Shown here in pieces: positions 20,310 to 52,594 of a stretch of 64,000 nt of DNA. The DNA lies in assembly GCF_032917945.1 (NCBI RefSeq), contig NZ_CP136624.1, forward strand, positions 8,479,001-8,543,000, written 5' to 3'. The position numbers and the translations under genes are program-made. This DNA is from Bradyrhizobium sp. sBnM-33. GTDB taxonomy: Bacteria; Pseudomonadota; Alphaproteobacteria; Rhizobiales; Xanthobacteraceae. Numbering within the stretch: position 1 is the stretch's first letter; every line of letters begins with the position of its first letter. The notes under the pieces were generated by a model. It was given only the letters and a program-made list of their open reading frames with translations, searched no databases and was not told the origin of the DNA.

Positions 20310-20340
20310 GGCTCGTTAGGCGTTGTTAGACGTTGCGAGC
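20310..20340 (-). promoter_or_regulatory. Island operator 1 (tandem CTAACA repeat)
   Basis: Read toward the gene: GCTCGCAACGT then CTAACAACGC then CTAACGAGCC, with units phased at 10 bp. The first unit is degenerate. It lies 75 bp upstream of the 73-aa Cys-rich protein gene and has the same layout as the five other copies. Confidence 0.6.
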
Positions 20341-20464
20341 AAGTAACCGCGTTACGCCAGTTCACCTATCGATAAAGTGATGATATGATGCATATCATTG
20401 TATTGATCGGCGTAGCGCCCCGACTATTTCAGAGGGCGGATCAATTCCAATTAGGGAGATTTCA

Positions 20465-20617
20465 GTGACGAAACACACCGAAGGGGCAATCTGGTACCAT
20501 CGCTATGAATTCGTGCACGGCGACGATGCCGACTTCATCGCCTATCAACGGCATCTAGGCGATGGCGCTTGGCAGACGTTCTCAACATGGATGATCCCGC
20601 GCGTGGACTTTAACTAG
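20465..20617 (+). CDS. 50-aa protein of unknown function, GTG start
   Basis: A GTG codon preceded by AGGGAG at 6 bp opens a 50-codon frame ending in TAG at 20615-20617. The product is rich in aromatic and acidic residues (AIWYHRYEFVHGDDADFIAY, GAWQTFSTWMIPRVDF) and has no signal or membrane segment. Composition and ribosome-binding site argue for a real gene. No family is recognised. It lies alone between the Cys-rich peptide and the truncated STAND regulator. Confidence 0.5.
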   Translation: MTKHTEGAIWYHRYEFVHGDDADFIAYQRHLGDGAWQTFSTWMIPRVDFN

Positions 20618-20709
20618 TTGGATCCTGCGCCGACAAGCTGCTAACGCCGGTGCGTCTTGGACGATTGCATCAAGGCAATGGTAGCTTGCAATCATCGGCG
20701 AAGTTAAGG

Positions 20710-22200
20710 TCACACTGGGACGCAGAGATCAGCTCTTACCCTTGCATCGACCGCAGCGGTTCGCATGGCGAACGGCCAGGCGGACAGTTCATCCTCGTCA
20801 GCGCTGATCATGAGCGCGTAGGAGCGCGTTGTGTCGAGCAATCGATAGCGCATTACGGCGCCGATCGGGTGGGTCGCGACCATCGACTTGGCGACCAGAC
20901 TGTCAATTGCGCCAAAAACTACCGATTCATCCAACGTCGCGCTGGTCGCAGCCGCGAGAGCGGCGTCGAGCGTAAAGTTCCCAACGAGTACGGCGAGCCG
21001 ACGAAGCACCGTGCGCTCCAGTTCGGAAAGCAACGCGTAGCTCCAATCCAGCGTGGCCTGCAGGGTCTTTTGGCGCGGCGTCGCTCTACGCGGGCCGGGC
21101 CACAGCAGCGGCGGGCGCAGGTTGAGCAGGGCGGCAGTCTGCGCCAGGCCGTAGGATTCGACATGCCTGGCTGCCAGCTCGATTGCCAGCGCCATCCCGT
21201 CGAGCTTCCGGCAGATACCCGCCACAATAGTCGCTTCCGGGTCGCTAAAGTCAGGGTGCGCGCCGCTCGCCACCGCCCGCTCTACGAATAACCGAGTCGC
21301 AGGAAATGTAAGAAGTGCAGCGGCCGTAAGCCCCTGATCCTCCGGTGGACAGGCAAGAGAGTCCAGTCGGTAGACATGTTCATCCTTGACCTGAAGAACC
21401 TCTCGGCTTGTCGCGAGGAGGTGTACTTGCGGCGCTGCTGTGAAGATTAGTGACGTCAGTTCCGCGACCGTCTCGATGAGATGTTCGCAAGTGTCGAGAA
21501 TCAGCAAAAGTCGCTTGTCCCGCAGACAAGCGAGCAGGTTCGGCGTCGCGTCCTCGGATTCGACAGACAGGCCCAGCGTCGACGCTATGGCCGAGGCGAC
21601 GAGCTTGGGATCGTTTAGCATGCCAAGATCGACGAAGACCACGGCACCCGTGAATTCATCGAGCAGATGATGCCCAACCGCTAGGGCGACCGTCGTCTTG
21701 CCGACGCCACCGGCGCCAACGATTGTGACAAAGCGCGTTGCGTTCAGCCGGTTTGATAGTTTGAGAACATCATCATCGCGTCCGATCATCCGGATAGATC
21801 GGCTCGCCAGGTTGGCGTGCGGGAAGCCTGCTGCGACCTCTGCAACTGCCTGGCTTCGTTTGCTCGACCGCGAGACCGGAGCCACGAAGCAGTAGCCTCG
21901 CCCAGACGATGTCGAGATGTATCTGGCACCGTCCCTTCCATCACCGAGCGCCTTACGGATACTCGCGACGTGAAACCGCAGGCTGCCTTCTTCTACCGTG
22001 ATGCCAGGCCAGACCTCAGCCATCAAATCGCTTTTACTAATGACTTCGTTAGGACGCGACAGCAGTGTCACCAAGAGGTCATAGGCCCGCCCGCTGAGTT
22101 CTACGGGCTCGCCATCCTTTGTCAGCAGTCTCTCGCTCGCGACCAAGCTAAAAGAACCGAACGATATGACCTCTTTGGTCTGCGCTATCCCCGTCGTCAT
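20710..22200 (-). CDS. Winged-helix / NB-ARC ATPase regulator, truncated before the TPR part
   Basis: The start MTTGIAQTKEVISFG at 22200 has GGAG 7 bp upstream. An OmpR-type winged helix is at residues 7-105 (LMAEVWPGITVEEGSLRFHV, RYISTSSGRGYCFVAPVS). An AAA/NB-ARC ATPase follows, with P-loop GAGGVGKTTVALAV, Walker B LLLILDTCEHL and sensor LLATSRE. It is closely similar to the 951-aa protein at 49565-52420 but stops at about 496 aa. Near 20750 homology continues in another frame (LAVRHANRC), so a frameshift removed the roughly 450-residue TPR sensor region. A truncated regulator could act constitutively, dominantly or not at all. Confidence 0.82.
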   Translation of the reverse strand: MTTGIAQTKEVISFGSFSLVASERLLTKDGEPVELSGRAYDLLVTLLSRPNEVISKSDLMAEVWPGITVEEGSLRFHVASIRKALGDGRDGARYISTSSGRGYCFVAPVSRSSKRSQAVAEVAAGFPHANLASRSIRMIGRDDDVLKLSNRLNATRFVTIVGAGGVGKTTVALAVGHHLLDEFTGAVVFVDLGMLNDPKLVASAIASTLGLSVESEDATPNLLACLRDKRLLLILDTCEHLIETVAELTSLIFTAAPQVHLLATSREVLQVKDEHVYRLDSLACPPEDQGLTAAALLTFPATRLFVERAVASGAHPDFSDPEATIVAGICRKLDGMALAIELAARHVESYGLAQTAALLNLRPPLLWPGPRRATPRQKTLQATLDWSYALLSELERTVLRRLAVLVGNFTLDAALAAATSATLDESVVFGAIDSLVAKSMVATHPIGAVMRYRLLDTTRSYALMISADEDELSAWPFAMRTAAVDARVRADLCVPV

Positions 22201-22272
22201 CGGCGTGCTCCAATTCATTAGCCGTCACTGTCACTCATGGATCTCCAACAAGTCTGCTGCGCGTTAAATCTT

Positions 22273-23435: not shown

Positions 23436-26351
23436 CTAACGTTGTCCCGAGAGTTCATCCAGTAGAACCTTCGCGGCCCTAAGATCGTTGGTTTCGTACC
23501 CTTCGGTGAAGCGGCTATAGATCGGCGCGAGCAGCTCGTACGCTTCGCCGATCCTCCCCTGATCCTGCCGCAGTCGCGCTAGGCTAGTTGTGGTGCGTAG
23601 CTCCCACGCGAGGGCCTCCTGCGTTCGGGCTAGCTCGATCGACTCTAGAAAGTCCTCCTCGGCCTTGCCCGCGGTGTGACTAGCATCCCGCTGCAAAACG
23701 ACTACACCCCTGATCCGCAACAGCTCCGGGCTACACCAGCGCTCCGCGCTCTGCTCACTTCGTACGATCGCTTCATCGATCGTTGCCTTTGCCAGTAGGG
23801 CGTCTCCGGTGACCGCCAACCCCTCGGCCAGCGCGCCCAGGAACGTCGTGAGATACTGGACGAATCTGGCTCGGCGCAGCTCGTCTATACCAGCTTTAAG
23901 CTGCTGCAATCCGGCAGCGCCGCGCTTGACGTGCAGTTCTCCTTCGAAACAGCGGCCGTAAGCGCGCCAAATATCGAGCTCATCGCTGGCAGTTTGATCG
24001 AGCAGCATCTTTGTGTAGCGCTCCGCGGCCAACAGATCGCCAGCCATGAGCGCAACCGGACACGCTGCTTGAGCAAGCGCGTTGCAGAGCGAAAGCCTGT
24101 GATTGATCGAAAGAGCCTCGCCGACATTAATCTCGACACAGCGTAACGCCTGATTCGCAAACCCTTGCAGCCATAGTACTCGCGCGAGCGTGATGCGTGC
24201 TGTCACCCGTTGGTCGAATTGGAAGCGCACCGCATGTGAGCGACGGACCGGGGTAACGTAGCTCGCAAGCATCCGCTCAATGTGCTGTCGCGCACTCGAT
24301 TGTCTACCCAGGAAATGCAGCGTCGCACCTGTCAATCGGTCACCGAGCAATCGATCATTCATATCCGCGGTCTTGTCGGCAACGGAAGAAAAACGCTTCG
24401 CGATGGTCAGAGCTTCGCCAAACTCTCCCCGATTAACTCGCGAAGCCCACATTCCCCAGAGCGCTCGTAAGCGGTAGTCAGTATCGTCCAGCCCCTCCGC
24501 GATTTCGGAAGCAGTCGTCCACGCCACTTCCGTGTCTCGGGCCGATGCCGTTGTGTACATCTGCGACCAGGCAACCGCAGCATAGAGTTGCATCCGGCGG
24601 CGGTCATCCTTCGTCGTACTTTCCCCGAGTGTGGCTAGCGCACGTTCGGCGCGCGCGCGGCATTCCTCCATCAGCGACATCTCGAACCAAAGGGGCGACG
24701 CGGCGACCGTCAGCTCTACACCGAGGCCAACATCACCGCTTGGCGAAAAGGCCCAGTCTAGCGCGTTGCGAAGATCGTCGATCTGCGGAGCATAGGCGGA
24801 CAACCATTCGGTCGTGGGCCATGTATCCCACTCTGCATGGGCACGCTCGAATCGATCGAGTAGGTAAAGCGCGTGTCGTCTTCTCACAGCTTGCGTTTCT
24901 TCGTCAGTCAACCTATTCAGCGCGTAGGCTCGTGCTGTATCTGTTAGGCGATAGAATACGTTCGCGCCTCCCACATCCGCGATGACCAGTGACTTCTCGA
25001 CAAGATCGGCAATGACATCGTCTACCTCGGACGCGATAGTTGTGCCGTCTCCAGCAATGGCGGTTGCAGCGTCCATCGTAAAGCGTCCAGCAAATACTCC
25101 CAGCCGGCGCATGACGACGCGTTCGGTTTCGGAGAGCAGTTCATAGCTCCAATCGAACGCTGCACGAAGCGTCTGATGCCGTGGCAGGGCGGTCCGCCGG
25201 CCGCGTGACAACAGATGAAATCGATCATCCAGGCGACTGGCCACTCCGCGAACGCCAAAGGCGTCAACGCGACACGCGGCAAGTTCGATTGCTAGTGCGA
25301 TTCCGTCGAGCCGACGGCAAATCTGCGCGACAACTGGGATATCTTCGTCCTTGAGTTCGTATCCGCCGCTTGCTGCCGCCCGCTCGACAAAGAGTTGTAC
25401 CGCCGGGTAGCTAAGCGCTTCCGTGACTGTTAATCCTGGTTCGGTAGGGGCGGTTTCCAGTGGCGGGAGGCGCTGCACGCGCTCATCTTCGGCACGCAAA
25501 GGTTCTCGACTGGTGGCAAGGACGTGAATACCCGGTGCTCCTTTCAATAGTTCTTCCGCCAACGCTGCGGCTGCCAGCAGGACATGCTCGCAGTTGTCGA
25601 ACAGGAGCAGCATCTGCTTGTCTTTCAGAAAGGAGGTCAGTGCGGGATATGGATTCTCTGAGCGGACGGCGACACCAAGCACTGCGGCGAGTGCGCTCGG
25701 CACAAGCTGGGGATCGCTGAGGGGAGCAAGGTCAACAAGCCGTCCACCGTCTTTGTAAGTGGCAATCAGCTTGTCGGCGACCGCCAGAGCAACTGTCGTC
25801 TTGCCGATTCCGCCTGGTCCGACAATCGTGACGAAGCGGCCTCGCTTCAATCGACTGCTTACCATTGCAACGATATCGTCGCGGCCGATCGGCCGGGTGA
25901 GGCGGTCAGGAAAGTTGTGCCCCTTAGGGCCGGCGGCGGTGAATGGCTCGGCCGCATCGCTCGTGGACCGTGCTACCGCCGCAACGAAGCGATACCCCCG
26001 ACCGGGCACCGTGACGATGTAGTTTTCGCCCGTGCCACCCTCCGCGAGTGCGCGCCGCACAGCATTGATTTGAGCTCGAAGATTCGATTCTTCGACGGTG
26101 AGGCCAGACCACACGCGAGCAATGAGTACATCTTTGTCGACTACTTCGCCGGCGCGCTCAACCAACGCAACGAGAATTTCAAAGGCTCGACTTCCGAGCG
26201 GAACTGGATTGTCGCCTTGAAGCAGTAGTTGCTGCCGTGGGGAAAGGCGGAACGGGCCAAATGAGAACGTAAGCGCGCTTACGTGATTGCGTCCGTCACT
26301 TTCCGTGACGGATGCAGAAGGATGATCACGGTCGCCTCTGCTAGGTGCCAT
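23436..26351 (-). CDS. Winged-helix / NB-ARC / TPR (STAND) transcriptional regulator, 971 aa
   Basis: A large signal-transduction ATPase. The order is an OmpR-like winged helix (residues 27-125; VIARVWSGLTVEESNLRAQI-like region, YIVTVPGRGYRFVA), then an NB-ARC-type ATPase (P-loop GPGGIGKTTVALAVADK, Walker B MLLLFDNCEHVL, LATSREPL), then about 450 residues of alpha-helical TPR-like repeats. In this class the TPR part usually holds the ATPase inactive until an inducer is bound. It is a paralogue of the proteins at 20710-22200 and 49565-52420 and a candidate to bind the repeated island operators. The esterase gene follows on the same strand. Confidence 0.85.
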   Translation of the reverse strand: MAPSRGDRDHPSASVTESDGRNHVSALTFSFGPFRLSPRQQLLLQGDNPVPLGSRAFEILVALVERAGEVVDKDVLIARVWSGLTVEESNLRAQINAVRRALAEGGTGENYIVTVPGRGYRFVAAVARSTSDAAEPFTAAGPKGHNFPDRLTRPIGRDDIVAMVSSRLKRGRFVTIVGPGGIGKTTVALAVADKLIATYKDGGRLVDLAPLSDPQLVPSALAAVLGVAVRSENPYPALTSFLKDKQMLLLFDNCEHVLLAAAALAEELLKGAPGIHVLATSREPLRAEDERVQRLPPLETAPTEPGLTVTEALSYPAVQLFVERAAASGGYELKDEDIPVVAQICRRLDGIALAIELAACRVDAFGVRGVASRLDDRFHLLSRGRRTALPRHQTLRAAFDWSYELLSETERVVMRRLGVFAGRFTMDAATAIAGDGTTIASEVDDVIADLVEKSLVIADVGGANVFYRLTDTARAYALNRLTDEETQAVRRRHALYLLDRFERAHAEWDTWPTTEWLSAYAPQIDDLRNALDWAFSPSGDVGLGVELTVAASPLWFEMSLMEECRARAERALATLGESTTKDDRRRMQLYAAVAWSQMYTTASARDTEVAWTTASEIAEGLDDTDYRLRALWGMWASRVNRGEFGEALTIAKRFSSVADKTADMNDRLLGDRLTGATLHFLGRQSSARQHIERMLASYVTPVRRSHAVRFQFDQRVTARITLARVLWLQGFANQALRCVEINVGEALSINHRLSLCNALAQAACPVALMAGDLLAAERYTKMLLDQTASDELDIWRAYGRCFEGELHVKRGAAGLQQLKAGIDELRRARFVQYLTTFLGALAEGLAVTGDALLAKATIDEAIVRSEQSAERWCSPELLRIRGVVVLQRDASHTAGKAEEDFLESIELARTQEALAWELRTTTSLARLRQDQGRIGEAYELLAPIYSRFTEGYETNDLRAAKVLLDELSGQR

Positions 26352-27644: not shown

Positions 27645-28031
27645 AGCGGCGTCCTCGCGTCTCCAAAGTTAATTGTACGCGCGCGATGTGACTTGTGACG
27701 ATCCTACTCGATGTTCGTGCGGGATGCCATCGCGACAGCCCGCGTCTGGCGCGCGGCCGCCGCTGTGCGTTAGGTGCGGGCGAAACCGGAGAATCCCACT
27801 AGCACAGCCCAGGTCGCGGCCGAATCCTCTTCATTGTACTTGATATCCGGACGTAGGGCCCGTCGCCGGTCTGACGAAGTGTTTGAAAGCTCGCCAAGAA
27901 AACCCCCAGCTCCAGGGAATTGTGCTCGACCAAGGGCAATAGCGACCGATAGCCCTGAGCAGTTCATGCGCGCGCGGATAACGCCCAACTAAGCGAGTGT
28001 CTCGGCGCTGCGCCTGTCGCTGATGGCAACA
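27645..28031. other. Divergent intergenic region, no gene seen
   Basis: About 390 bp between the quinone-reductase start and the operator ahead of the cytochrome gene. Short frames on both strands lack features. Promoters for both sides should be here. Confidence 0.35.
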
Positions 28032-28062
28032 GCTAACAGCCTCTAACAATACCTAACGAGCG
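28032..28062 (+). promoter_or_regulatory. Island operator 2 (tandem CTAACA repeat)
   Basis: GCTAACAGCC, TCTAACAATA and CCTAACGAGCG follow each other with TAAC at 10-bp spacing. It lies 104 bp upstream of the cytochrome P460 gene, in the same orientation relative to the gene as the other five copies. Confidence 0.65.
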
Positions 28063-28166
28063 GTTTGCCGGCTTCTGCACCAATGTCGGCTCGGCCTTAC
28101 CGGCTCGTCACGCTGCGCGGTGGCACAAGAGGTATCGCCGGTGACGTCGTCAGAAGGGGACAGACC

Positions 28167-28739
28167 ATGCAGAACGCCAACGTCGTGATCAATTGGATTG
28201 CAGGAGCCGCCGTAGTGGCGACCGTCGCGGCTTGGGGGGTGATCGGTGGGAGTGCAGAAAGTAACGAGAAGGTCATAGCGGATGCCAATGGAAATTTGCA
28301 TGTGCCGCAGGGTTATCGATCTAGCTACCAAATGCTAGGGAGCTGGGCGGTGGCTGCGGATCAAGGACAGGGCTCAAAGGAGATCCATGCTGTCTATGCG
28401 TCACCTGGAGTAATCGCCTCTTATCTAAAGAATGGACGATTTCCGGATGGTGCCGTTTTTGTCAAAGAAGTCTTTGAAGCCGCCACTCAACACATGACGA
28501 CTGGTACGGTAAGTCACGCTGGGAACTTTAAGGGTTGGTTCGTCATGTTGAAGGACAGCAGTAATCGCTATCCGGCCAATAAGCTGTGGGGAGACGGTTG
28601 GGGCTGGTCATGGTTCGAAGCCGACAACCCATCGAGAACAACTTCCACCGATTACAAAACCGATTGCCAGTCGTGTCATACGCCAGCTCAAGCAACTGAT
28701 TGGATTTATGTAGAGGGATATCCCCCACTTAAGCGATAG
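28167..28739 (+). CDS. Cytochrome P460-family c-type haem protein
   Basis: The start MQNANVVINWIAGAAVV at 28167 has AAGGGGA upstream. An N-terminal hydrophobic segment (residues 7-27) should export the 190-aa protein to the periplasm. The P460 domain (QGYRSSYQMLGSWAV, EIHAVYASPGVIASYLKNGR, FPDGAVFVKEVFEA) ends in the haem-binding motif CQSCH near residue 172. Family members oxidise hydroxylamine or bind NO through a lysine-crosslinked haem; here only the fold and haem site are visible. It is first in a run with a molybdenum oxidoreductase, a flavin reductase and a copper-type Cys-rich protein. Confidence 0.85.
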   Translation: MQNANVVINWIAGAAVVATVAAWGVIGGSAESNEKVIADANGNLHVPQGYRSSYQMLGSWAVAADQGQGSKEIHAVYASPGVIASYLKNGRFPDGAVFVKEVFEAATQHMTTGTVSHAGNFKGWFVMLKDSSNRYPANKLWGDGWGWSWFEADNPSRTTSTDYKTDCQSCHTPAQATDWIYVEGYPPLKR

Positions 28740-38457: not shown

Positions 38458-38459
38458 GG

Positions 38460-41079: not shown

Positions 41080-41242
41080 GGTGGTGTTCTCCTTTGCGCT
41101 CATGGGTGCTGTTGTACTGGCCCCGAAAAAAAGCCGCGAGACCGATCGGCTGCTCACCTGCGAACCACATCCAGTCGACGAACACCCACCGTGTATGACT
41201 GATGGGATCTCGTCTCTCCGATCCTCAAACCTTACAGCGAAG

Positions 41243-41671: not shown

Positions 41672-41693
41672 GGGCCCATCCTTCGTATCTGCG

Positions 41694-42752: not shown

Positions 42753-42784
42753 TGTCTGACTCCTAGAGGGCGAAACCGTCTTCG

Positions 42785-43591: not shown

Positions 43592-43691
43592 GGCACTTTA
43601 TCCTTTTGGGTTGCGCCGCTGGCGCGTGGGTTTTGTTCGGGTTTCCTGATGCTCTCGAGTTGCTCAAGACCTACCCTCGGAAAGCAGGAAA

Positions 43692-43722
43692 CGCCCGTTA
43701 TGCGTTGTGAGATGCTGTTAGC
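43692..43722 (-). promoter_or_regulatory. Island operator 4 (tandem CTAACA repeat)
   Basis: Toward the gene: GCTAACAGCA, TCTCACAACG, CATAACGGGCG. It lies 100 bp upstream of the SDR start. It shares 29 identical bases with operator 5, plus a similar downstream GTAGnTCTTGnGCAAC. Confidence 0.68.
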
Positions 43723-43736
43723 CGTTGTCCGGCGGG

Positions 43737-44852
43737 TCAGCCGAACGTGAAGGCGAAGACCTCCGCGCCGGAGCCGAAGAACTCGATTTCGAACTGGCGA
43801 TCGGCGATTGGGCCGGGTTGCCGGATCAGCGTGTACATCCGCTGTTCGGTCACCGTGCCGTAGCCCTGCTCGTCGACGTCGACCCCACGGGCGGAGCTTG
43901 GCGGCTGTCCGTCGATCAGCACACGGAATTTTATGGGCGATCCACGCACTGCCGGACCCATGACGAGGTGAAGGTCGCGGGCGTGAAAGCGGTACGTGAC
44001 GCTTCCTCCGGCTTTGTTCAGAGCGGCGGCATCCCGCTTCACCGTCCACTCGCCGGAGAGAGCCCATTCATTCAGGCTCAGCTGCGCGGGCGGTCGATAC
44101 AGGCGCGGTTTGTCCCGCAATACGCCGTCTGGTGACGCAAAGTTCTCGGTGCGCTCGAACCCGACATAGTTTTCGAGAGATTTGAGATTGGCCCAGTCGG
44201 GGGCAGCCTCGTGGGCGCGGGCATCCACCGTAACCGGCTTGTCACTGACGCTAGTGGCTCCGGCCTCTCGCAGCAGCGCCTGGATGACCATCTCCGACTG
44301 CTCATAGGAGCCTTCGCCAAAAAAGGAATGGCGGACACGTCCTTGCGCATCAATCAAGTAGAGAGCCGGCCAGGCTTGGTTCTCGAATGCGCGCCAAATG
44401 GTATGATTGTTGTCGACCGCAACTGGGTAGTCGACCTTCATGTCTTCCGCGGCCCAGCGAACGTTTGCCGTGTTCGTTTCGAATTCGAACTCCGGGGCGT
44501 GAATGCCAATCACCACCAGTCCCTGGTCCTTGTATTTCTCATGCCAGGCACGGACATACGGAAGCTGACGACGCCAGTTGATGCAGGTGTAAGTCCAGAA
44601 ATTGACCAGGACGACCTTTCCGCGCAGAGATTCCGAGGTCAGAGCCGGCGAATTTAGCCATTCGTTCGCGCGGTCAAGCGATGCCAGCGCATTTTGACCG
44701 GCAGACGGGCCGATAGGGAATCCGTGAAGGAACGGAACGCGCGCTCCGGTGGACGTCATCGGCTGACCTTTCATTTCGCTGACAAAGCCGGCGATCGGCG
44801 CCCCGATCGCCGCGGCAAGGATTGCTGCCACCAAGAGTTTGTTTATGTTCAT
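43737..44852 (-). CDS. DipZ/TlpA-like redoxin with altered active site
   Basis: A 371-aa protein with an N-terminal membrane anchor or signal (LLVAAILAAAIGAPIAGFVS). A thioredoxin-fold domain follows (VVLVNFWTYTCINWRRQLPY, VVIGIHAPEFEFE, NQAWPALYLIDAQGRVRHSF), then a C-terminal beta domain like that of DipZ proteins. The usual CINC pair reads CINW, so the resolving Cys is replaced by Trp and a dithiol cycle is not possible at this site. It could act as a one-Cys peroxidase or with glutathione; this is inference. It ends the unit headed by the epoxide hydrolase gene. Confidence 0.83.
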   Translation of the reverse strand: MNINKLLVAAILAAAIGAPIAGFVSEMKGQPMTSTGARVPFLHGFPIGPSAGQNALASLDRANEWLNSPALTSESLRGKVVLVNFWTYTCINWRRQLPYVRAWHEKYKDQGLVVIGIHAPEFEFETNTANVRWAAEDMKVDYPVAVDNNHTIWRAFENQAWPALYLIDAQGRVRHSFFGEGSYEQSEMVIQALLREAGATSVSDKPVTVDARAHEAAPDWANLKSLENYVGFERTENFASPDGVLRDKPRLYRPPAQLSLNEWALSGEWTVKRDAAALNKAGGSVTYRFHARDLHLVMGPAVRGSPIKFRVLIDGQPPSSARGVDVDEQGYGTVTEQRMYTLIRQPGPIADRQFEIEFFGSGAEVFAFTFG

Positions 44853-44967
44853 CGGTAGATCACTTCAGGTTTGAACGAGATTGTCGTGGCTTCGCGACGG
44901 AGCGGTCGGGCAATTAGGGTAGCTGCTGGTTCAGGCCTCGATCGAGGTCTCACGGGCCATTGCGCAC

Positions 44968-45924
44968 TCATCGGAATGAAGCACGCACCTCATCGATGGC
45001 CTGCTTCGGGGTCTGGAGATGAGGGTAGTGCCCGATGCCGGTAAGAAGCGTGAGTTCGGCGTTCACCCTTTCGGCGAACTCGATTCCCATTTCTTTCTTG
45101 ATGTAGAGGTCTTTCTCGCCCCAAACCACCTTCACCGGAGTTTTGAGCCGGGCCAGTTGCGACTCGAAGTGATCTTGGTCCCGCGTAAAGTGCGCGTAGT
45201 AGTGGGAGAACGCGTCTGCCGTCGTCATCGAACCCTGGCTCCATCCACGGGACATGTCATCCTTGAATTCCGGCGAAACCTCGAATTGCGTTTCATTGGA
45301 CAAGCCTCTTCTGAAGGCGTTTTCGAGGATATCGTCGCGATTCTTGTTCAGATTGGCGCGGGCCTGCTCCATCGAAGGCCCCGCCTTCAGGCTTTGCAGG
45401 CTTTCGTACATGTAATGGGGTCGGTTGAACGGGGCGAAGTCGCCGACGATGAGAGTCTTCGCGATATCGGGTTTTTCCAGGCCCAGGAGAAGCGCTGGCA
45501 GGGCCCCGATATCCGTTGCGTAGATCGTGAGCTTCGACGTGTCGATGCCTGCTTTTGCTATGTAGTCATTCAGAACACGCGCGTAGTCCTTGGGCGCGTA
45601 GGAGAACCTGTCGACCGTCGGCCGCGATGAAAGGCCGTAGCCCGGCCAGTCGAAAGCATGGACTTCGTAGTCATCGGCGAGGGCGAGGGAAATGTTCTTC
45701 CAGGCGTACAGGGTCTCCGGAAACCCGTGCAGAAAGAGAACGGTTCCTTTCGGTCGCGGATTGTACACAACCATTCTTCTGAGCGTGATGTCCTTGTCGA
45801 TTTCGAAGAAGCCGATATCGGCTTTCCTTTCTTGCTCGGAGGGAGCTTGGGCGTGTCCCGGCGCGGCAGAACTGCAGAGCATTGCAATGCCTGCGAACAA
45901 GTTCCGGAATAATGGCTTTGGCAT
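44968..45924 (-). CDS. Exported alpha/beta hydrolase (Asp-nucleophile type)
   Basis: A 318-aa hydrolase with a Sec leader (NLFAGIAMLCSSAAPGHAQA). Motifs are VLFLHGFPETLYAWKNI (oxyanion region), elbow IYATDIGALPALL with Asp as probable nucleophile, and catalytic His in TGIGHYPHLQTP. This places it with the epoxide hydrolase/haloalkane dehalogenase group. It is one of three such periplasmic hydrolases in the run 41.7-49.3 kb. Confidence 0.87.
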   Translation of the reverse strand: MPKPLFRNLFAGIAMLCSSAAPGHAQAPSEQERKADIGFFEIDKDITLRRMVVYNPRPKGTVLFLHGFPETLYAWKNISLALADDYEVHAFDWPGYGLSSRPTVDRFSYAPKDYARVLNDYIAKAGIDTSKLTIYATDIGALPALLLGLEKPDIAKTLIVGDFAPFNRPHYMYESLQSLKAGPSMEQARANLNKNRDDILENAFRRGLSNETQFEVSPEFKDDMSRGWSQGSMTTADAFSHYYAHFTRDQDHFESQLARLKTPVKVVWGEKDLYIKKEMGIEFAERVNAELTLLTGIGHYPHLQTPKQAIDEVRASFR

Positions 45925-45951
45925 GTCAGTTGCCCTCCCTGTATGACCGGA

Positions 45952-46173
45952 TCACTTAACGAGACGATCGACTTGCGCTTGCAGTCGCGGGCCGAGCAGC
46001 AGGGTCGCGGGAATGACAATAACGTACCCAATAGCCCAGGAACGCAGCCATGCGAGGGCCAATTCGTTCGAGAAGCCCAGATTGAGGGCGAGAAGGACGA
46101 AGGAAATGATTCCGGTCGTCACGACGCCCATCGAAAGTGAGAAAGCGATTTTCCGTTTCAGCTGCGTGTTCAT
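45952..46173 (-). CDS. DUF2798 two-helix membrane protein
   Basis: This 73-aa protein starts MNTQLKRKIAFSLSMG after AGGAG. It has two transmembrane helices (VVTTGIISFVLLALNLGF and AIGYVIVIPATLLLGPRLQA) joined by a short loop, the pattern of DUF2798 proteins of unknown role. It lies between the flavin reductase and hydrolase genes in the same direction. Confidence 0.78.
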   Translation of the reverse strand: MNTQLKRKIAFSLSMGVVTTGIISFVLLALNLGFSNELALAWLRSWAIGYVIVIPATLLLGPRLQAQVDRLVK

Positions 46174-46250
46174 GGATAGTCTCCTTGGTTCGGATGTCGT
46201 CTGCGTCGCGGGTTCAATGTCTTCGCCGCGCTTTCCTTTTGCTCTCGCGG

Positions 46251-46841
46251 TCAATACGGCGGCGCCTTGCGCTGTCGCTGCGCCTTGGCCGCTTCCACCC
46301 ACCACGTAAGGTCGTCGGCAAAACGGGGGAACGCCTGCTTAAGCGCCTGACCGTTTTCCCCAACAGGTTGGCCTTCGACCGACAAGGTCTGTCCGATCGG
46401 ACCAACACCAATAGTGCTGGAAACCACCACCATTCCCATCTCGGAGAGTGTACCGTGCCAGGCGGTTGCCGCGCGCGCACCGGACAAACGACCGGCGGAA
46501 TAGCTGACGATCGCTGCGGGCCGCCAGAACCATTCCTCCAGGAAATGATCCGTGAGGTTCTTCAGCCCGGGCTGGACGCCCCAATTGTACTCGCCAGTGA
46601 TGAACACGAACCCGTCGGCGTCGCGGATCTTGCCGGCGAGCTGCTCAAGGCGTTCGGGAGCTTCGCCCTTCGGATATTCCTTGTACATTCGATCAAGTAT
46701 CGGGAGATCGATCGCCTTGGCGTCGATCAACTCGACGTCATCGCCCCGGCGTCGCAACTGCTCGATCACAAATTGAGCGAGCCGAATCCCCATCCGATCC
46801 GAACGATAGGAGCCGTAAAAGACGAGAATGCGATTGCGCAC
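46251..46841 (-). CDS. NADPH-dependent FMN reductase family protein
   Basis: A 196-aa flavodoxin-fold reductase: phosphate-binding start ILVFYGSYRSDRMGIRLAQF, FVFITGEYNWGVQPGLKNLT and AAIVSYSAGRLSGARA. Such enzymes reduce FMN, quinones, chromate or azo compounds with NAD(P)H. The operon context favours quinone or electrophile reduction. Confidence 0.88.
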   Translation of the reverse strand: MRNRILVFYGSYRSDRMGIRLAQFVIEQLRRRGDDVELIDAKAIDLPILDRMYKEYPKGEAPERLEQLAGKIRDADGFVFITGEYNWGVQPGLKNLTDHFLEEWFWRPAAIVSYSAGRLSGARAATAWHGTLSEMGMVVVSSTIGVGPIGQTLSVEGQPVGENGQALKQAFPRFADDLTWWVEAAKAQRQRKAPPY

Positions 46842-46874
46842 GGCAAACCTCCGTTGGTGAAGTTTGAGCTGCTG

Positions 46875-47531
46875 CTATTGCGGCAGGTCCTTGCCGGCCT
46901 GCTCTGCAATCAGGTACTCGGCGTACCATTCAGGCCAGTTCTCATCGTGCCGTCCCCCGAGGCGCTTCTCGTACTGGCCGTGTGCTTCTGCCGCCCGCCG
47001 GAGAGCGGCCGCCAGATCGGCTCCCGAAGAAAACTTCGTTTGGCTCGCGTCTACGCGTCCGGGAAAGCGCGCGGTGACCTCCTGCAGTAGCCAGGAGTTG
47101 CCGTCCGGGTCGCTGAACGGGGCGTACGAGAAGTAGCTGCGGCGCTCCGGATCCGGGCCGGGCATCGGCGGATGTCCGGGAGCGGCAATGTGGAAGATTT
47201 CGCCCACATCGACGCCGCGCCCGACGAACTCGGCGCGCGCCGCCTCGATATCTGATACCACGAGGAACAACCCTTGTGCCGTGCCGGGTGCGGCTGATGT
47301 GACGCCCATCCCGAAGTGGATCGAAGTCGGCGAGCCTGGAGGCGTGAATTGCACGCCCCGAAAATGGTTACCGTCGATAAAGTCGGCGTCGAGTCTCCAG
47401 CCCAGGCGGCTGTAAAACTGCTTGGCGCGATCAACGTCCGAGACGGGAATCGCGACAACCTCGAGTTTGAGGTCAATGCCCCTCGCCCTCGAAGGATCGA
47501 TTTCAGAGTTGTTGCGTACTTGGATGTTCAT
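46875..47531 (-). CDS. VOC/glyoxalase-family protein
   Basis: The start MNIQVRNNSEIDPSRARG at 47531 has AGGAG 7 bp upstream and gives 218 aa. One vicinal-oxygen-chelate domain is visible (LKLEVVAIPVSDVDRAKQFY, RLGWRLDADFIDG, FSDPDGNSWLLQEVTARFPG), followed by a helical C-terminal extension (LRRAAEAHGQYEKRLGG) seen in a Rhizobiales/Burkholderia subgroup. Members include glyoxalases, dioxygenases and thiol transferases; the reaction is not identified. Confidence 0.85.
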   Translation of the reverse strand: MNIQVRNNSEIDPSRARGIDLKLEVVAIPVSDVDRAKQFYSRLGWRLDADFIDGNHFRGVQFTPPGSPTSIHFGMGVTSAAPGTAQGLFLVVSDIEAARAEFVGRGVDVGEIFHIAAPGHPPMPGPDPERRSYFSYAPFSDPDGNSWLLQEVTARFPGRVDASQTKFSSGADLAAALRRAAEAHGQYEKRLGGRHDENWPEWYAEYLIAEQAGKDLPQ

Positions 47532-47574
47532 TTTCAGCTCCTGTGGTTCGTGTGACTTGAGATGGTGACGAGTT

Positions 47575-47988
47575 TCACTTGCCCAGCGCGGAGAGCGGCC
47601 TGCCTTTTTCGACGATGTACGTGGCGAGCTCCGCGGCATTGCCGCTGCCGACATTCTTCACCGCGTGATGCGTTCCGTATGGGATGAGCAGCACATCGCC
47701 GGCCTTGAGCGTCGCCGGCGGTCTGCCGTCGAGCTGATATTCGAGCACGCCTTCGATGATATAGACGAGCTCTTCACCTGGATGGCTATGCCTGACGGCG
47801 ACCACGCCCGGGGGGAAATCGACGCGCACCTGAACGACCTCGCGTCCAGGGATGCTCAGATCTTCCTTCATGAGATTTGTGCGCTTAATATCGCCCAGAC
47901 GCACTTCTTGAGATTGCGCTGCGTGCGGAGCCAGACTGACAGTGGCGATCAGCGCCGCGATGACGGCCATCATTCGAGTCGATTTCAT
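47575..47988 (-). CDS. Exported cupin-domain protein
   Basis: A 137-aa protein with signal peptide MKSTRMMAVIAALIATVSLA and a cupin metal motif (AVRHSHPGEELVYIIEGVLE, then LLIPYGTHHAVKNVG). GGAG precedes the start. It is the second exported cupin in the cassette, directly downstream of the epoxide hydrolase gene, and a TG dinucleotide tract lies in the 49-bp gap. No substrate is known. Confidence 0.85.
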   Translation of the reverse strand: MKSTRMMAVIAALIATVSLAPHAAQSQEVRLGDIKRTNLMKEDLSIPGREVVQVRVDFPPGVVAVRHSHPGEELVYIIEGVLEYQLDGRPPATLKAGDVLLIPYGTHHAVKNVGSGNAAELATYIVEKGRPLSALGK

Positions 47989-48005
47989 GTAAATCTCCGT
48001 TTCGA

Positions 48006-48023
48006 TGTGTGTGTGTGTGTGTG
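48006..48023. repeat. (TG)9 dinucleotide tract ahead of the cupin gene
   Basis: Eighteen bases of alternating T and G lie 18-35 bp upstream of the cupin start, beyond its ribosome-binding site and after the epoxide hydrolase stop. Slippage could change spacing but not the coding frame. Confidence 0.8.
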
Positions 48024-48037
48024 AGAACCGGTTTCGG

Positions 48038-49339
48038 TCAGGGTTGTCGGAGCGGCCGGAACGCTGCGCGGATCTCCTGGGAGAAGAGCTCAGGCTGCTC
48101 CCACGCAGCGAAGTGGCCGCCTTTGTCGACCTCGTTGAAGTAAATGAGGTTGCGATAGGCGCGACGAGCCCACGTCTCCGGGGCGCGATAGACCTCTTCC
48201 GGAAACACGGTGATGGCGACCGGGAGCGATATCTCGCTGGTCTTCTGGGCGGTCGCGAGAACGACACTTTGGCCGGCGGTTTCCCAGTAGATGCGCGCTG
48301 CCGATGTCGCTGTATTGGTCAGCCAGTACAGCGTGATGTCGTCTAGAACATCATCTCGGTGAAGCCTGCGCGCGGGCTCGCCGTTGTTATAGTCAAAGAT
48401 CCAGGCCGCAAGCCCAATCGGAGAGTCGGCCAGGGCGTAGCCGATTGTCTGCGGCCGCGTGCCCATCACCACGCCATAGGCACGGTACTTCTTGAAGAAC
48501 GTGTTGAGCGAGTCGAATGCTGCGCGTTCCTTGTCAGAGAGCCCCGCAGGCGCGGGACCGCCGGTGGCGAGCACCGTGACCACGTCGGAGGGTACCGTCG
48601 CCGGGAGGTTGATATGGATGCCGAGCAATCCGGGAACCGCTTGGCGGGCCATCGAGCTCGAGACGGGTGAACCCCAGTCGCCGCCCTGGGCGACGTAGCG
48701 GGAGTAGCCAAGACGCTTCATCAATTCCGCCCAGGCGCGAGCGATGCGATCGGGATTCCAGCCCTTATCCTTTGGCCGGCCGGAAAAGCCGTAACCGGGC
48801 ATCGATGGAATCACGAGATGGAAGGCGTCCAATGCGTTTCCGCCATGCGCCGTGGGATTGGTGAGAGGATCGATGATCTTCAGCTGTTCGATGATCGAGC
48901 CCGGCCAACCGTGCGTGACGATCAGCGGTAACGCATTTTCATGCTTTGAGCGGACATGAATAAAGTGAATGTCGACGCCGTCAATTTCGGTCAGGAACAT
49001 GGGAAGCGCATTCAGTCGCGCTTCCACCTTGCGCCAGTCGTAGTCCGTGCCCCAGTAGCGGATCACCTCCTGGAATTTTGCGAGCTGTGGGCCCTGCGAC
49101 CCGTCATTGACAGTTTCCTGATCCGGCCAGCGGGTGGCAGCGATACGCCGGCGCAAATCGGCGAGCTGCCCTTCCGATACGTGGACGCGGAACGGCCGGA
49201 TGGCGTCCGCGGCAAGAGCGGCGGCGAGCTGTGACGGGAAGAGGCTTGCGGCACCCGCTACGGTGATGCCCATCGCAGCCATGCTCAAAAGCTGGCGACG
49301 GTTGTGGTCGATTGCTTCGATGGTCTTGCTGGTGTTCAT
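48038..49339 (-). CDS. Epoxide hydrolase with N-terminal EHN domain, Tat-exported
   Basis: I place the start at MNTSKTIEAIDHNRRQLLSM (49339), a twin-arginine-type leader; the frame is open to 49375. The EHN domain (FRVHVSEGQLADLRRRIAAT, RWPDQETV, WRKVEARLNALPMF) precedes the alpha/beta hydrolase core with HGWPGSIIEQLK, nucleophile GGDWGSPVSS and catalytic His in GGHFAAWEQPELFS. The 433-aa length fits microsomal-type bacterial epoxide hydrolases. It is the first gene of the minus-strand run 49.3-43.7 kb, with an island operator 60 bp upstream. Confidence 0.9.
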   Translation of the reverse strand: MNTSKTIEAIDHNRRQLLSMAAMGITVAGAASLFPSQLAAALAADAIRPFRVHVSEGQLADLRRRIAATRWPDQETVNDGSQGPQLAKFQEVIRYWGTDYDWRKVEARLNALPMFLTEIDGVDIHFIHVRSKHENALPLIVTHGWPGSIIEQLKIIDPLTNPTAHGGNALDAFHLVIPSMPGYGFSGRPKDKGWNPDRIARAWAELMKRLGYSRYVAQGGDWGSPVSSSMARQAVPGLLGIHINLPATVPSDVVTVLATGGPAPAGLSDKERAAFDSLNTFFKKYRAYGVVMGTRPQTIGYALADSPIGLAAWIFDYNNGEPARRLHRDDVLDDITLYWLTNTATSAARIYWETAGQSVVLATAQKTSEISLPVAITVFPEEVYRAPETWARRAYRNLIYFNEVDKGGHFAAWEQPELFSQEIRAAFRPLRQP

Positions 49340-49399
49340 CGGGCGCTCCGTCAGCTCGGCGGTGGTGTTGCCCAAGAACTACGTCCAAGACGCAGGAAA

Positions 49400-49430
49400 C
49401 GCCCGTTATGCGTTGTGAGACGTTGTTAGA
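49400..49430 (-). promoter_or_regulatory. Island operator 5 (tandem CTAACA repeat)
   Basis: Toward the gene: TCTAACAACG, TCTCACAACG, CATAACGGGCG. It lies 60 bp upstream of the epoxide hydrolase start and 134 bp past the stop of the 951-aa STAND regulator. Confidence 0.7.
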
Positions 49431-49564
49431 CGCTGCCAGCGCTGCCACCGTCTGGGCGGTACTCGAGCGGCAGGTCGGAACCGCCGCGGCGAATTCACCG
49501 GAAGATGGAGACGGCTGATAAGTCAGCGAAAATCAGGACGTGGGCGGTACGTCCGTCGGATGCG

Positions 49565-52420
49565 CTAACCTAAAGTCGTCAATAGGCGCTGGGCGGCTTT
49601 GAGGTCCGGCGAGTTCACGCCTTCGGTAAATTTTCTGACGATCGGAAGCAGGAGCCCGCGCGCATCCTTGACACGCCCTTGGTCGGCCCACAACGCTGCA
49701 AGGTCAGTGGCGGTTCGCAGCTCCCACACGTGAGAGCCGTGATTGCGGCTCAGTTCGAGCGATTGCTTGAAGCAAGTCTCGGCCTCTTTGGTCCGAGGCT
49801 TCGGCATCTTCAGTAGGATGCTTCCTTTGAGGCGCAAGAGCTCGGGGGTGTAAGGGATGCCACCCTTCGCTTCAACCAATTGTATCGTTTCGTCGATTAG
49901 GGTGACGCCTTCCATGAATCGACCCGTGGCGGCGTATCCGCGAGCGAGCATAATGCCGAATCGCGCGGTGAAGCGCTCGTAATGCGCCGCGTGGAGTTTC
50001 TCCAAGCAATCTCTTAACGTTTTGACCCCGGCCTCGACATCGCCGCGGCGGATAGCGAGCTCGGCTTGGAGGCCGCGCCCCACATCGACATAAGGCCCGA
50101 AGTATTGCGTTTCCGCGCGGGAAACAAACCAGTCCAAGTGCTGCTCGGCGGCGTCAAGCTCGTCGGTCCACAGCAGTACAGTGATTGCAGTCAGCGCAAT
50201 GACGAGCGATATCGGATGGTTCATGCGCTCGGCGTCATTGACCGCTTTAAGCGCTTTTGCCGATGCCTGCTCCGAATAGCCCTGCAACCAAAGGGTCGTG
50301 GCCAGTGACGCTCCGGCCAAACTGAGATGATCAAACCCAAAATAGGCTGCACGGCCCGCTGCCGCGCTTGCTTCACGTTCAAGTGCTGCCTCCAATTCCG
50401 CCCGCGCGCCATTGAGATCGCCCGCGAGATGGCGCGAAATCCCCAATAGCGAATGTGCCAGTGTAGTCAGCGTGACGTCATCAAGTTTGCTGGCGATGAT
50501 GGAGCAGTGCTCGGCGCACCGCAAGGCGAGACGATAATCGCTGCCGCGCAGGTGGAATAACTGCAGCATACCCAGCATTGCGGCCGTATGGAAGGCGTCG
50601 CTGCATTGTTGGGCAATCTCAAGGCTTCTGTTTAGAGCCGCGTGGACCCGATCGCTGTTGCCGCGCGTGAACATCAGCGAAATTCCAAAACCGGCCGTAA
50701 GCTGCATTTCTTCGCGGCCGCCCCTGCGTGAATCATCGAGAGCGAGGAGGCCGCGCTCCGACCAGCGCTGGCATTCGATCAACAACGACATCGCCAAGAA
50801 GACCGGCGCAGCGGCGGCTGCTAGCTCAATACCGATTGATACGTTGCCGTTTTCGCCAAGGCACCACTCCAAAGCCGCGCGGACATTGTTGAGACCGGCA
50901 AAGAAAGGTGCCCGTTCCGTGCCGGTCGTCAGTGTCTCCCATTCGTTTCCGGTCTGCTCCAGCCAGCGCCGATAATAGGTCGCATGACGCACGGCCAGAT
51001 CGGCTGCGTCGGTGGGGTCTAAGCTGATGTCGAGGGCGTAAGCGCGGGTGGTGTCGAGCAAACGGTAACGCATCATCGCCCCGATCGGGCGGGTGGCGAC
51101 CATCGACTTGGCGACGAGGCTGTCGATCGCGCCAAACACAATCGATCGATCGAGGGGCGCGCTGGTAGCGACGTCCAGCGCCGCGTCGAGCGTGAAATGT
51201 CCAACGAAAACGGCGAGCCGGCGAAGCACCACCCGTTCCTGCTCGGACAGGAGCCCGTAGCTCCAGTCAAGCGTGGCCTGCAATGTCTTCTGGCGCGGCG
51301 GTGCCGTGCGCGACCCGTGCCACAGCCGTGCCAGACGTTGATCCAAAAGCGTGGCGGTCTGCTGCAACCCGTGGGATTCAACGCGTCTGGCCGCGAGCTC
51401 GATCGCAAGCGTCACACCGTCAAGCTTCCGGCAGATGTCTGCGATAAGGGGAGCTTCCGCATCGCTGAGATCCAGGCGCGCGCCGCTCGCAATCGCGCGC
51501 TCTACGAACAGCTGACATGCCGGAAACTGCTGGACAGCCGCCGCCGTAAGCCCCCCCGGGGCGTCCGGGGGACACGCAAGCGCATCCAGCCGGTAAACGT
51601 GCTCGCCCTCGATCCGTAGGGCCTCGCGGCTCGTAGCCAGGATGTGCACTTGCGGCGCAGCCTCTATGATCCTTGCAGCCAGCGGAGCAACCGTTTCCAC
51701 CAAATGTTCGCAGGTATCGAGAATCAAAAGAATCCGTCGGCTCCTCAGAAATGCAATGAGACCGGGCGTTACATCGTCCGACTGGATCGACTGTCCCAGC
51801 ATGGAGGCGACGGCCGTCGCTGCAAGCTTCGGATCGTTCAGCATCCCGAGATCGACGAAGAGGACAGAACCTGCGAAGGCGTCCACCAGGTGATGTGCAA
51901 CAGCGATCGCGACCGTCGTCTTGCCGACGCCACCAGCGCCGACGATGGTGACAAATCGCGAAGCGGTCAGGTCGGCTGACAGCTTCAGGACATCATCATC
52001 TCGGCCGACGATTCGGCTCAGGCGACCGGGAAGATTGGCGTACGGAAAGTTGGCGGCGGCGGGCGCCACCTCGGGCGCGCTGCTTCCACGCGAGACAGGC
52101 GCGACGAAGCAATAGCCCCGCCCTGCGACGGTGGTGATATATCGCGCGCCGTCCGTTCCGTCGCCGAGCGCCTTGCGCAGGCTCGCCATATGAAACCGCA
52201 AGCTACCCTCTTCGACGGTGACGTCCGGCCAAACCCATGACATCAGTTCCTTCTTGCTGATGATTTCATTCGGCCTGGAAATCAGCGCGATCAGCATGTC
52301 GAGCGCTCTCGCACCCAGATCGACCGGGACGCCGTGTTTCGTGAGAAGCCTTTCGCTCGCCACTAAATTGAAGGGGCCAAACGACAACCTATCGCTGGCC
52401 TGATCCGGTACCGTCGCCAT
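49565..52420 (-). CDS. Winged-helix / NB-ARC / TPR (STAND) transcriptional regulator, 951 aa
   Basis: The OmpR-type winged helix is at residues 10-107 (LMSWVWPDVTVEEGSLRFHM, YITTVAGRGYCFVAPVSR). The ATPase has P-loop GAGGVGKTTVAIAV, Walker B ILLILDTCEHLVE and LATSREALR. About 480 residues of helical TPR-like repeats follow. It is the full-length version of the truncated protein at 20710-22200. Operators 5 and 6 flank it, one behind each end, making it the prime candidate for the protein that reads the CTAACA repeats. The inducer is unknown. Confidence 0.87.
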   Translation of the reverse strand: MATVPDQASDRLSFGPFNLVASERLLTKHGVPVDLGARALDMLIALISRPNEIISKKELMSWVWPDVTVEEGSLRFHMASLRKALGDGTDGARYITTVAGRGYCFVAPVSRGSSAPEVAPAAANFPYANLPGRLSRIVGRDDDVLKLSADLTASRFVTIVGAGGVGKTTVAIAVAHHLVDAFAGSVLFVDLGMLNDPKLAATAVASMLGQSIQSDDVTPGLIAFLRSRRILLILDTCEHLVETVAPLAARIIEAAPQVHILATSREALRIEGEHVYRLDALACPPDAPGGLTAAAVQQFPACQLFVERAIASGARLDLSDAEAPLIADICRKLDGVTLAIELAARRVESHGLQQTATLLDQRLARLWHGSRTAPPRQKTLQATLDWSYGLLSEQERVVLRRLAVFVGHFTLDAALDVATSAPLDRSIVFGAIDSLVAKSMVATRPIGAMMRYRLLDTTRAYALDISLDPTDAADLAVRHATYYRRWLEQTGNEWETLTTGTERAPFFAGLNNVRAALEWCLGENGNVSIGIELAAAAAPVFLAMSLLIECQRWSERGLLALDDSRRGGREEMQLTAGFGISLMFTRGNSDRVHAALNRSLEIAQQCSDAFHTAAMLGMLQLFHLRGSDYRLALRCAEHCSIIASKLDDVTLTTLAHSLLGISRHLAGDLNGARAELEAALEREASAAAGRAAYFGFDHLSLAGASLATTLWLQGYSEQASAKALKAVNDAERMNHPISLVIALTAITVLLWTDELDAAEQHLDWFVSRAETQYFGPYVDVGRGLQAELAIRRGDVEAGVKTLRDCLEKLHAAHYERFTARFGIMLARGYAATGRFMEGVTLIDETIQLVEAKGGIPYTPELLRLKGSILLKMPKPRTKEAETCFKQSLELSRNHGSHVWELRTATDLAALWADQGRVKDARGLLLPIVRKFTEGVNSPDLKAAQRLLTTLG

Positions 52421-52563
52421 GGGGTCTACTTTCCATCTCGCGGGTTTCCGGGCGGCACTTTATTTCAAGAGTCACCTCCACACCACCAAGAGAGTGGTGA
52501 ATCTGCTTCCCCTCGGTCCCAGACCCTCCAACACCGCCCGGAAGGTGGGCGGCGCTGGCAGCG

Positions 52564-52594
52564 TCTAACAACTTCTTACGACGCATAACGGGCG
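52564..52594 (+). promoter_or_regulatory. Island operator 6 (tandem CTAACA repeat)
   Basis: TCTAACAACT, TCTTACGACG and CATAACGGGCG, with the same phase as the other copies. It lies 87 bp upstream of the chosen start of the efflux adaptor gene and 144 bp from the divergent regulator start, so it could act on both. Confidence 0.68.

Follow-up and report, generated by a model that had tools for sequence, protein, structure and literature searches.

Does the short repeated element that stands before six transcription units of one rhizobial island act as their common operator, and which protein would read it? The question was raised by a 64,000-nucleotide stretch of Bradyrhizobium sp. sBnM-33 (contig NZ_CP136624.1, positions 8,479,001 to 8,543,000; hereafter the window). 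A preliminary description, made from the sequence alone, had assigned six near-identical elements of this stretch to a self-contained detoxification regulon of STAND-type activators. From the comparison of the element and its neighbourhood across genomes, we consider it quite probable that it is the operator of an activator-dependent sigma-70-type promoter, read by two subclasses of one winged-helix/STAND/TPR regulator family.

The window was scanned with a position weight matrix (PWM) of the six sites. The six elements scored 33.5-41.6 bits, the next matches (17.4, 16.1, and 15.5 bits) were the same sites offset by one 10-bp unit, and the best unrelated match reached 14.6 bits. When each element was left out in turn and searched for in register, only training sites outscored it among 127,932 positions (ranks 6, 6, 6, 5, 2, and 6). 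A 35-position sequence-only model of the six sites (R1), run on the 9.18-Mb genome, gave 30.6-36.6 bits for the six elements and 15.4, 13.6, and 13.4 bits for the next matches. The six window elements are thus the sole strong copies in the genome. A plain pattern of three TAAC 10 bp apart, ending in TAACGG, had zero exact matches genome-wide, and therefore a probabilistic model was needed. The elements lay where the preliminary description had placed them, the best register of that at 39964 being one base over. All six were intergenic (between the open reading frames [ORFs] taken as genes) and, as proposed, each was directed at its downstream gene. Likely starts with a ribosome-binding-like sequence were found at +84, +113, +108, +109, +69, and +96 from the T of the last TAAC, that is, about 61-105 bp from the element end, in agreement with the 60-104 bp proposed. 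The proposed 10-bp spacing of three CTAACA-like units held, but CTAAC is not present in every unit: unit 1 of the element at 20310 has CTCGC, and three sites have CTCAC or CTTAC as their middle unit.

The anatomy of the element was derived from 84 sites (82 unique), namely those inside 60 neighbourhoods and three stretches of this genome, taken from 150 listed genus-level matches and two of this genome. It consists of three direct 10-bp units, spaced by one turn of the helix, in the orientation of the downstream gene, the last unit being TAAC-RRGC, and the aligned sites give the consensus CTMRCAACgT-CTAACAACNC-MTAACGRGC. The columns invariant in the six window sites are C4, T5, C8, A9, T13, C14, T15, A17, C18, A20, C23, T25-C28, G31, and C32. 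Downstream, counting from the T of the last TAAC, 79 of the 82 sites had A at +28 and 56 of 82 had T at +32. These positions correspond to bases 2 and 6 of a -10 hexamer (+27 to +32), a box on which the preliminary description was silent and which belongs to the element. The last unit lies about 18 bp from this -10 box, with weak base preferences only between them. Because the +28 column is outside the 35-bp R1 search model, it independently indicates that the element belongs to a promoter. No -35-like hexamer was conserved across the sites; in the window, the -35 position (+4 to +9) reads GAGCCA, GAGCGG, AAGCAA, or GGGCGT, unlike TTGACA, and is part of the last repeat. Because no -35 box is conserved, the element looks like an activator-dependent sigma-70-type promoter. 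If transcription starts 6-7 bp past the hexamer, the start would be near +39, and units 2 and 3 would then be centred near -40.5.

The preliminary description had also tied the element to the winged-helix/STAND family, and this link was supported both by a fixed place beside the regulator and by co-occurrence between genomes. A set free of circularity consisted of 58 loci picked by regulator protein similarity alone, from Afipia, Bradyrhizobium, Rhizobium, Desertibaculum, Mycoplana, Xanthobacteraceae, and other Rhizobiales, mostly Bradyrhizobium. The best PWM match of the whole locus was ≤400 bp before the regulator and on the opposite strand in 49 of 56 loci (the partial loci L210 and L214 left out), and 40 column-permuted PWMs placed it in that spot in 0-9 of 56. 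Half of the ten non-Bradyrhizobium loci had their best match upstream; the other five had strong sites elsewhere in the locus. Three TAACs in the 400-bp upstream regions fitted best at a spacing of 10 (mean 9.04 of 12), and the means at spacings of 6-9 and 11-15 were 7.05-7.77 of 12, with no signal at 11. With an improved model (R2), which includes two weaker sites of this genome (3323081 and 7482791) and some related Bradyrhizobium sites, a divergent site was found just upstream of the regulator in 50 of the 58 loci (expectation value [E] up to 0.11, 1.24 Mb searched). The arrangement recurred among eight annotated plasmid loci: in Phyllobacterium, Rhizobium johnstonii 3841 pRL9, and Rhizobium sp. 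TH2, the site was flanked by the regulator on one side and by Ohr or epoxide hydrolase on the other; the Ensifer locus had two divergent sites between Ohr and epoxide hydrolase, Bradyrhizobium sp. 195 had five sites, and Ash2021 had one (18.1 bits). Relatives of the winged-helix STAND protein were matched in 551 plasmid records, 135 of them over at least 80% of the length. A de novo repeat scan (periods 8-13) of 27 loci with distant regulators, in which minus-strand whole-genome cases were poorly covered, gave nothing convincing except in L256. The operator is thus not demonstrated for the wider regulator family. We also observed that nine class B regulators (defined below; L105, L117, L121, L123, L127, L133, L135, L140, and L147) each had at least three operators around them, at conserved positions near 60, 260, 880, and 1900 bp; one of these operators is a variant with CTTGC as its middle unit.

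Between genomes, the regulator was counted as present when a relative of the 951-aa protein of the window was found at E ≤ 1e-50. The genus survey covered 195 genomes, with the stricter filters that R1 used above 40 genomes; R2 was not run on all 195. An R1 match at E ≤ 1 was found in 111 genomes and a regulator relative in 146. At E ≤ 0.01, all 71 genomes with the element had the regulator, 75 had the regulator only, and 49 had neither (Fisher p 3.5e-12, on counts that are not independent, the genomes being related); in other words, the regulator occurred in 75 of the 124 genomes lacking the element, and the element in 0 of the 49 lacking the regulator. At E ≤ 1, the regulator was present in 106 of 111 element genomes. 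Two of the five exceptions (G009 and G132) had weak matches only. Genome G188 had seven R1 matches at E ≤ 10. In the order, where the regulator was present in 39 of 397 genomes, R2 at E ≤ 0.01 found the element in 13 genomes, four of them outside the genus, and all 13 had the regulator. At E ≤ 0.05, 15 of 20 had it, and the other five matched only the 3' part of R2. The finding that the preliminary description had named as refuting, the motif spread genome-wide or lacking the regulators, was therefore not made with R1 at E ≤ 0.01 (71/71 among the 195 genomes); with R2, three of the five re-examined genomes had an element and no long regulator match.

Further copies in the same genome were sought with R2. 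The sites 7482791 and 3323081, themselves part of this model, reached E 1.5e-7 and 8.3e-4, and the next match had E 0.42. Confinement of the motif to the island thus held for the strong copies, with these two weaker sites outside it. Site 3323081 adjoins 3323241-3326082, where a broken relative of the 951-aa regulator lies, and is followed by an oppositely directed ORF of at most 446 aa. Downstream of site 7482791 is an ORF of at most 268 aa; a 444-residue frame with a winged helix lies about 3.5 kb away. The region 3323059-3326082 (locus L030, 9055-12089) can be seen as a second, smaller module of operator, divergent ORF (≤446 aa), and regulator, the last being 65% identical to the 951-aa regulator and broken by a stop or frame break. 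A third weak match at 983180 was taken as chance: no regulator-family gene was among the listed matches nearby, and its +28 is G, not A.

What kind of protein is the regulator? Pfam found Trans_reg_C in all three regulators of the window, plus NB-ARC or weaker STAND/AAA matches. The winged helix is N-terminal and of OmpR type (Trans_reg_C at 32-105, E 4.7e-15), and the P-loop NTPase is of the NB-ARC/NACHT type, the mark of a STAND protein. Sequence matches to PDB chains at E ≤ 0.01 gave none beyond the winged helix. An AlphaFold model of the 951-aa protein (16 sequences, mean pLDDT 78.7, pTM 0.55, several stretches of 364-467 below 50) predicted winged-helix strands and helices at 11-112, a low-confidence short linker, an NTPase from near 127-141, and a TPR-like superhelix from about 470 to 951, with helical repeats to the C-terminus. 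The model matched the STAND-TPR protein 6mfv, and VIA-align matched 561-944 to MalT domain III (1hz4) and 127-372 to Apaf-1. In the three regulators, no BTA-type Pfam match was found at E ≤ 0.001, a diverged BTA elsewhere being possible, and Pfam gave no Response_reg (receiver) match. No C-terminal LuxR-type helix-turn-helix (HTH) was seen, the N-terminal Trans_reg_C being the only DNA-binding domain found. The claim of three winged-helix regulators with NB-ARC/TPR parts was correct for the two full-length proteins, and the 502-aa one is truncated and has lost the TPR. The last 30 or so residues of this paralogue do not resemble the 951-aa protein, and a frameshift interrupts its relative in genome G099. 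The paralogue is probably decaying; the short form may be a functional always-on activator or a pseudogene. The cysteines C237 and C330 were invariant in the 16-sequence alignment. They were considered as evidence of redox (thiol) sensing and rejected as such, as both sit in what we take to be general NTPase motifs.

The window elements fall into two subtypes. In subtype A (43690, 49398, and 52562, which lie closest to the 951-aa regulator), CTCAC or CTTAC forms the middle unit and the last unit has GGG; in the other three, the middle unit is CTAAC and the last has GAG or AAG. For 149 unique sites ≤3 kb from a regulator (2 ambiguous dropped), found with columns -9 and +5 neutralised in the scan, the subtype was compared with the regulator class, class A being at least 50% identical to the 951-aa protein. 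A base other than A at -9 was found in 58 of 72 class A sites versus 16 of 75 class B sites (p 3e-13), and G:A at +5 was 58:6 versus 14:44 (p 1.6e-14; 25 C/T sites left out), for columns that were chosen after inspection and sites that, coming from related genomes, are not independent. Exceptions were Rhizobium and Ensifer class A sites with CTAAC, and operator 1, which is of subtype B though its nearest gene is the truncated class A regulator.

The genes named in the preliminary description were found downstream of operators 1-6 (table 1), and their detoxification character was supported: many targets are detoxification-type genes. The longest ORF downstream of each of the 84 sites was clustered, some singletons probably being chance frames. 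The main clusters were a MOSC-YiiM-FNR-Fer2 fusion (19), epoxide hydrolase (16), and DJ-1/PfpI (9), followed by alpha/beta hydrolase (6), Ohr (5), and membrane-fusion protein (4). There were also four pairs (P460, an ORF overlapping the Cys-rich peptide, a 2Fe-2S subunit of a molybdenum oxidoreductase, and one of no known type) and 17 singletons, including ferritin/Dps-like, AraC-type, and, by reading only, two HlyD-type ORFs. The commonest headed gene, a fusion of about 585 aa (MOSC, YiiM-like, flavin reductase, 2Fe-2S), was seen in loci including L281, L290, L292, and L296-L310. In the surrounding stretches of about 9.5-20 kb, a regulator match longer than 200 aa accompanied 52 of the 84 sites and was absent at 32, including all 19 of the MOSC cluster and L031, whose match is short. 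The regulon is therefore dispersed in many genomes, and its proposed self-contained nature was not supported, given these 32 sites and the two sites outside the island. Judged by its genes, the regulon would be directed against organic hydroperoxides, epoxides, and reactive carbonyls.

Table 1. Operators, regulators, and headed genes of the window (positions counted from its first letter).
Feature	Position	Strand	Remark
Operator 1, subtype B (middle CTAAC, TAACGAGC)	20308..20342	-	-10-like GCAGAG at 20286-20291
Operator 2, subtype B	28030..28064	+	-10-like CAATGT at 28081-28086
Operator 3, subtype B-like (middle CTAAC, TAACAAGC)	39963..39997	-	-10-like GAATAT at 39941-39946
Operator 4, subtype A (middle CTCAC, TAACGGGC)	43690..43724	-	-10-like TAGGTC at 43668-43673
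Operator 5, subtype A	49398..49432	-	-10-like TAGTTC at 49376-49381
Operator 6, subtype A (middle CTTAC, TAACGGGC)	52562..52596	+	-10-like TATCCA at 52613-52618
951-aa regulator, class A: OmpR-type winged helix, STAND NTPase, MalT-like TPR superhelix	49565..52420	-	Pfam, model, structure matches
971-aa regulator, class B, 40% identical to the 951-aa protein	23436..26351	-	winged helix by Pfam, rest by alignment to the 951-aa protein
502-aa truncated regulator, winged helix and NTPase, no TPR	20710..22218	-	71% identical to first half of the 951-aa protein
73-aa Cys-rich peptide, operator 1	20013..20234	-	no Pfam match
Cytochrome P460-family protein, operator 2	28167..28739	+	likely start 28167
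After P460: molybdopterin oxidoreductase, FAD/NAD reductase, DUF326 Cys-rich protein	28770, 29318, 30240		
Enoyl-CoA hydratase-like protein with 2Fe-2S and molybdopterin subunits, xanthine-dehydrogenase-type oxidoreductase, operator 3	36283..39865	-	subunits called IorAB in the preliminary description
SDR, alpha/beta hydrolase, OsmC/Ohr-like, cupin, CMD/AhpD-like unit, operator 4	40184..43591	-	
Epoxide hydrolase, cupin, glyoxalase-like, DUF2798, alpha/beta hydrolase, thioredoxin/AhpC-like, operator 5	43737..49339	-	
Membrane-fusion protein and AcrB-type RND pump, operator 6	52682..57023	+	

Several features of the window accompany these genes. The DUF326 Cys-rich protein of the P460 unit has 137 aa (30240-30653) and belongs to a type associated with copper storage. 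A 35-bp stretch of the molybdopterin oxidoreductase gene (29040-29074) recurs at 35491-35525 with 97% identity, perhaps as a gene remnant. An integrase-like gene (DUF6538, Phage_int_SAM_1; 57286-58371) directly follows the RND operon and suggests that the detoxification island is mobile; ARAGORN found no tRNA in the window.

Besides the relatedness of the surveyed genomes, several observations weigh against the element being the operator of this family. With R1 at E ≤ 0.01 and the strict filters, 75 of 146 regulator genomes were without the element. Conversely, three genomes had an R2 match and no regulator at E ≤ 1e-50: G016 (8.6e-7), a fragmented draft with regulator pieces only; G091 (1.1e-6), a fragmented draft with a 30%-identical relative; and G076 (0.0046), a single-contig genome with no long regulator match. 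The sites of the first two head a MOSC-reductase and an epoxide-hydrolase-like ORF. No R2 match was found in the Variovorax (L276) or Paraburkholderia (L277) locus, with homologues about 50% and 46% identical. Among 30 MOSC-reductase loci, compared as a control for loss, 18 had the operator at their own promoter, two (L282 and L291) had it only >1 kb away, and ten had none, two of these ten coming from regulator-less genomes (G035 and G168) and several from genomes with the regulator. Moreover, the recognition-helix segment, which is LRFH in 67 of 72 class A matches, is mixed in class B (16 of 39 LRFH, 14 LRVH, 9 other) and therefore does not by itself explain the subtypes.

These points were weighed together with three other explanations. 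The same regulators could read the element and repress, leaving the promoter silent until an inducer frees them. The present evidence is neutral on the sign of regulation, and the -35 position, which the last repeat overlaps, is one at which repressors can act as well. We nevertheless regard repression as unlikely. The -10 departs from TATAAT and no -35 is conserved, and such a promoter would therefore be weak without help; in addition, the STAND transcription factors MalT and AfsR are activators. The site also lies upstream of the -10, as in AfsR and class II activators (PMC10936776).

It is still less probable that the element is read by some other protein and that the STAND regulators are mere neighbours; candidates would be an ECF sigma factor, a response regulator of the OmpR type, or one of the island's TetR and LysR proteins. 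Across genera, and on Rhizobium and Ensifer plasmids as well, the linkage tracks the STAND family, and the subtype tracks the regulator class. The window does contain a TetR gene (34290-34886) and a LysR gene (59151-60029), but dimers of these families would be expected to bind an inverted repeat, not a 10-bp direct repeat. Bradyrhizobium has H2O2-inducible ECF sigma factors, and the EcfF promoter motif contains GTAAC; however, this motif (GTAAC-N14-15-YCGW) is a single element, and the ecfQ repeats are GAAAC (PMC3420878). That the element is a small mobile or recombination repeat, like an integron attC, or an RNA feature seems hardly credible, as the same element heads unrelated genes in many genomes, its orientation to the downstream gene and the fixed-distance -10 box are conserved, and no Rfam family reached the gathering score in 18000-58000. 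There is a superficial match to attC core sequences, GTTAGGC resembling such a core, but attC has an inverted core pair, and here direct repeats occur without one.

For the activator-dependent operator that we prefer, we infer regulator binding, oligomerisation, activation, and the nature of the inducer as follows. The signal would be a toxic small molecule bound by the TPR part, an organic hydroperoxide, an epoxide, an aldehyde, or a related electrophile being the likeliest kind, and the NTPase would then let the regulator oligomerise. Two or three winged helices would occupy neighbouring 10-bp repeats, the last of which takes the place of the missing -35, and RNA polymerase would be drawn to the -10 box, 27 bp downstream of the last TAAC. 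A bolder proposal, to which we give somewhat less than an even chance, is that a hybrid MalT/AfsR class of activators (OmpR winged helix, STAND, and MalT-type sensor, no BTA) controls a mobile, partly dispersed electrophile-defence regulon in Hyphomicrobiales. Such activators would sense plant- or lipid-derived peroxides, epoxides, or aldehydes by the STAND sensor, not by a thiol switch, and would bind the 3 × 10-bp operator as a trimer or higher, with the two island paralogues insulated by the operator subtypes.

In practical terms, the element predicts targets genome by genome and suggests one co-regulated detoxification programme (Ohr, epoxide hydrolase, DJ-1/PfpI, MOSC-reductase, SDR, RND) in Bradyrhizobium, Rhizobium, Ensifer, Phyllobacterium, and relatives. 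It makes the assembly of a STAND transcription factor on tandem sites testable on a small, repeat-built target, and the two operator subtypes matching two regulator subclasses amount to a natural specificity experiment. Relatives of the winged-helix STAND protein are common in proteobacteria and beyond. Neither the element, nor its operator role, nor such rhizobial regulators were found described in the full-text literature searched, a search that left most subscription papers outside its reach, in line with the earlier remark that no description of the element was known. The B. japonicum ecfQ and EcfF promoters were considered as a prior description and rejected, as their motifs (GAAAC repeats; GTAAC-N14-15-YCGW) differ (PMC3420878).

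Compared with known systems, the 951-aa regulator resembles MalT in its predicted domain III-like sensor and differs from it in the N-terminal OmpR-type winged helix, MalT having a C-terminal LuxR-type HTH. From OmpR/PhoB response regulators it differs in that no receiver domain was found. Ohr-type genes among the targets recall OhrR and other thiol-based regulators, OhrR being a small MarR repressor with a reactive Cys. A likeness to the EcfQ/EcfF system lies in the Ohr and epoxide hydrolase genes of the same genus: in B. japonicum, Ohr, epoxide hydrolase, and Msr genes are reported as H2O2-inducible and a yet unknown transcription factor is proposed for ecfQ (PMC3420878). The closest mechanism is that of AfsR and the SARP activators of Streptomyces, with the afs box as operator. 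SARP structures did not appear in the Foldseek or VIA lists of the 951-aa model, which carries no weight against this likeness. AfsR has the same domain types (an N-terminal OmpR-type domain, a nucleotide-binding oligomerisation domain, and TPR), and its afsS operator likewise consists of direct repeats overlapping a poor -35 (PMC10936776). The differences are that afsS has two 11-bp repeats centred at -29.5, whereas here there are three 10-bp units, with units 2 and 3 probably at the class II position; that no BTA domain was found between the winged helix and the NTPase; and that AfsR targets antibiotic genes, whereas the targets here are of detoxification type.

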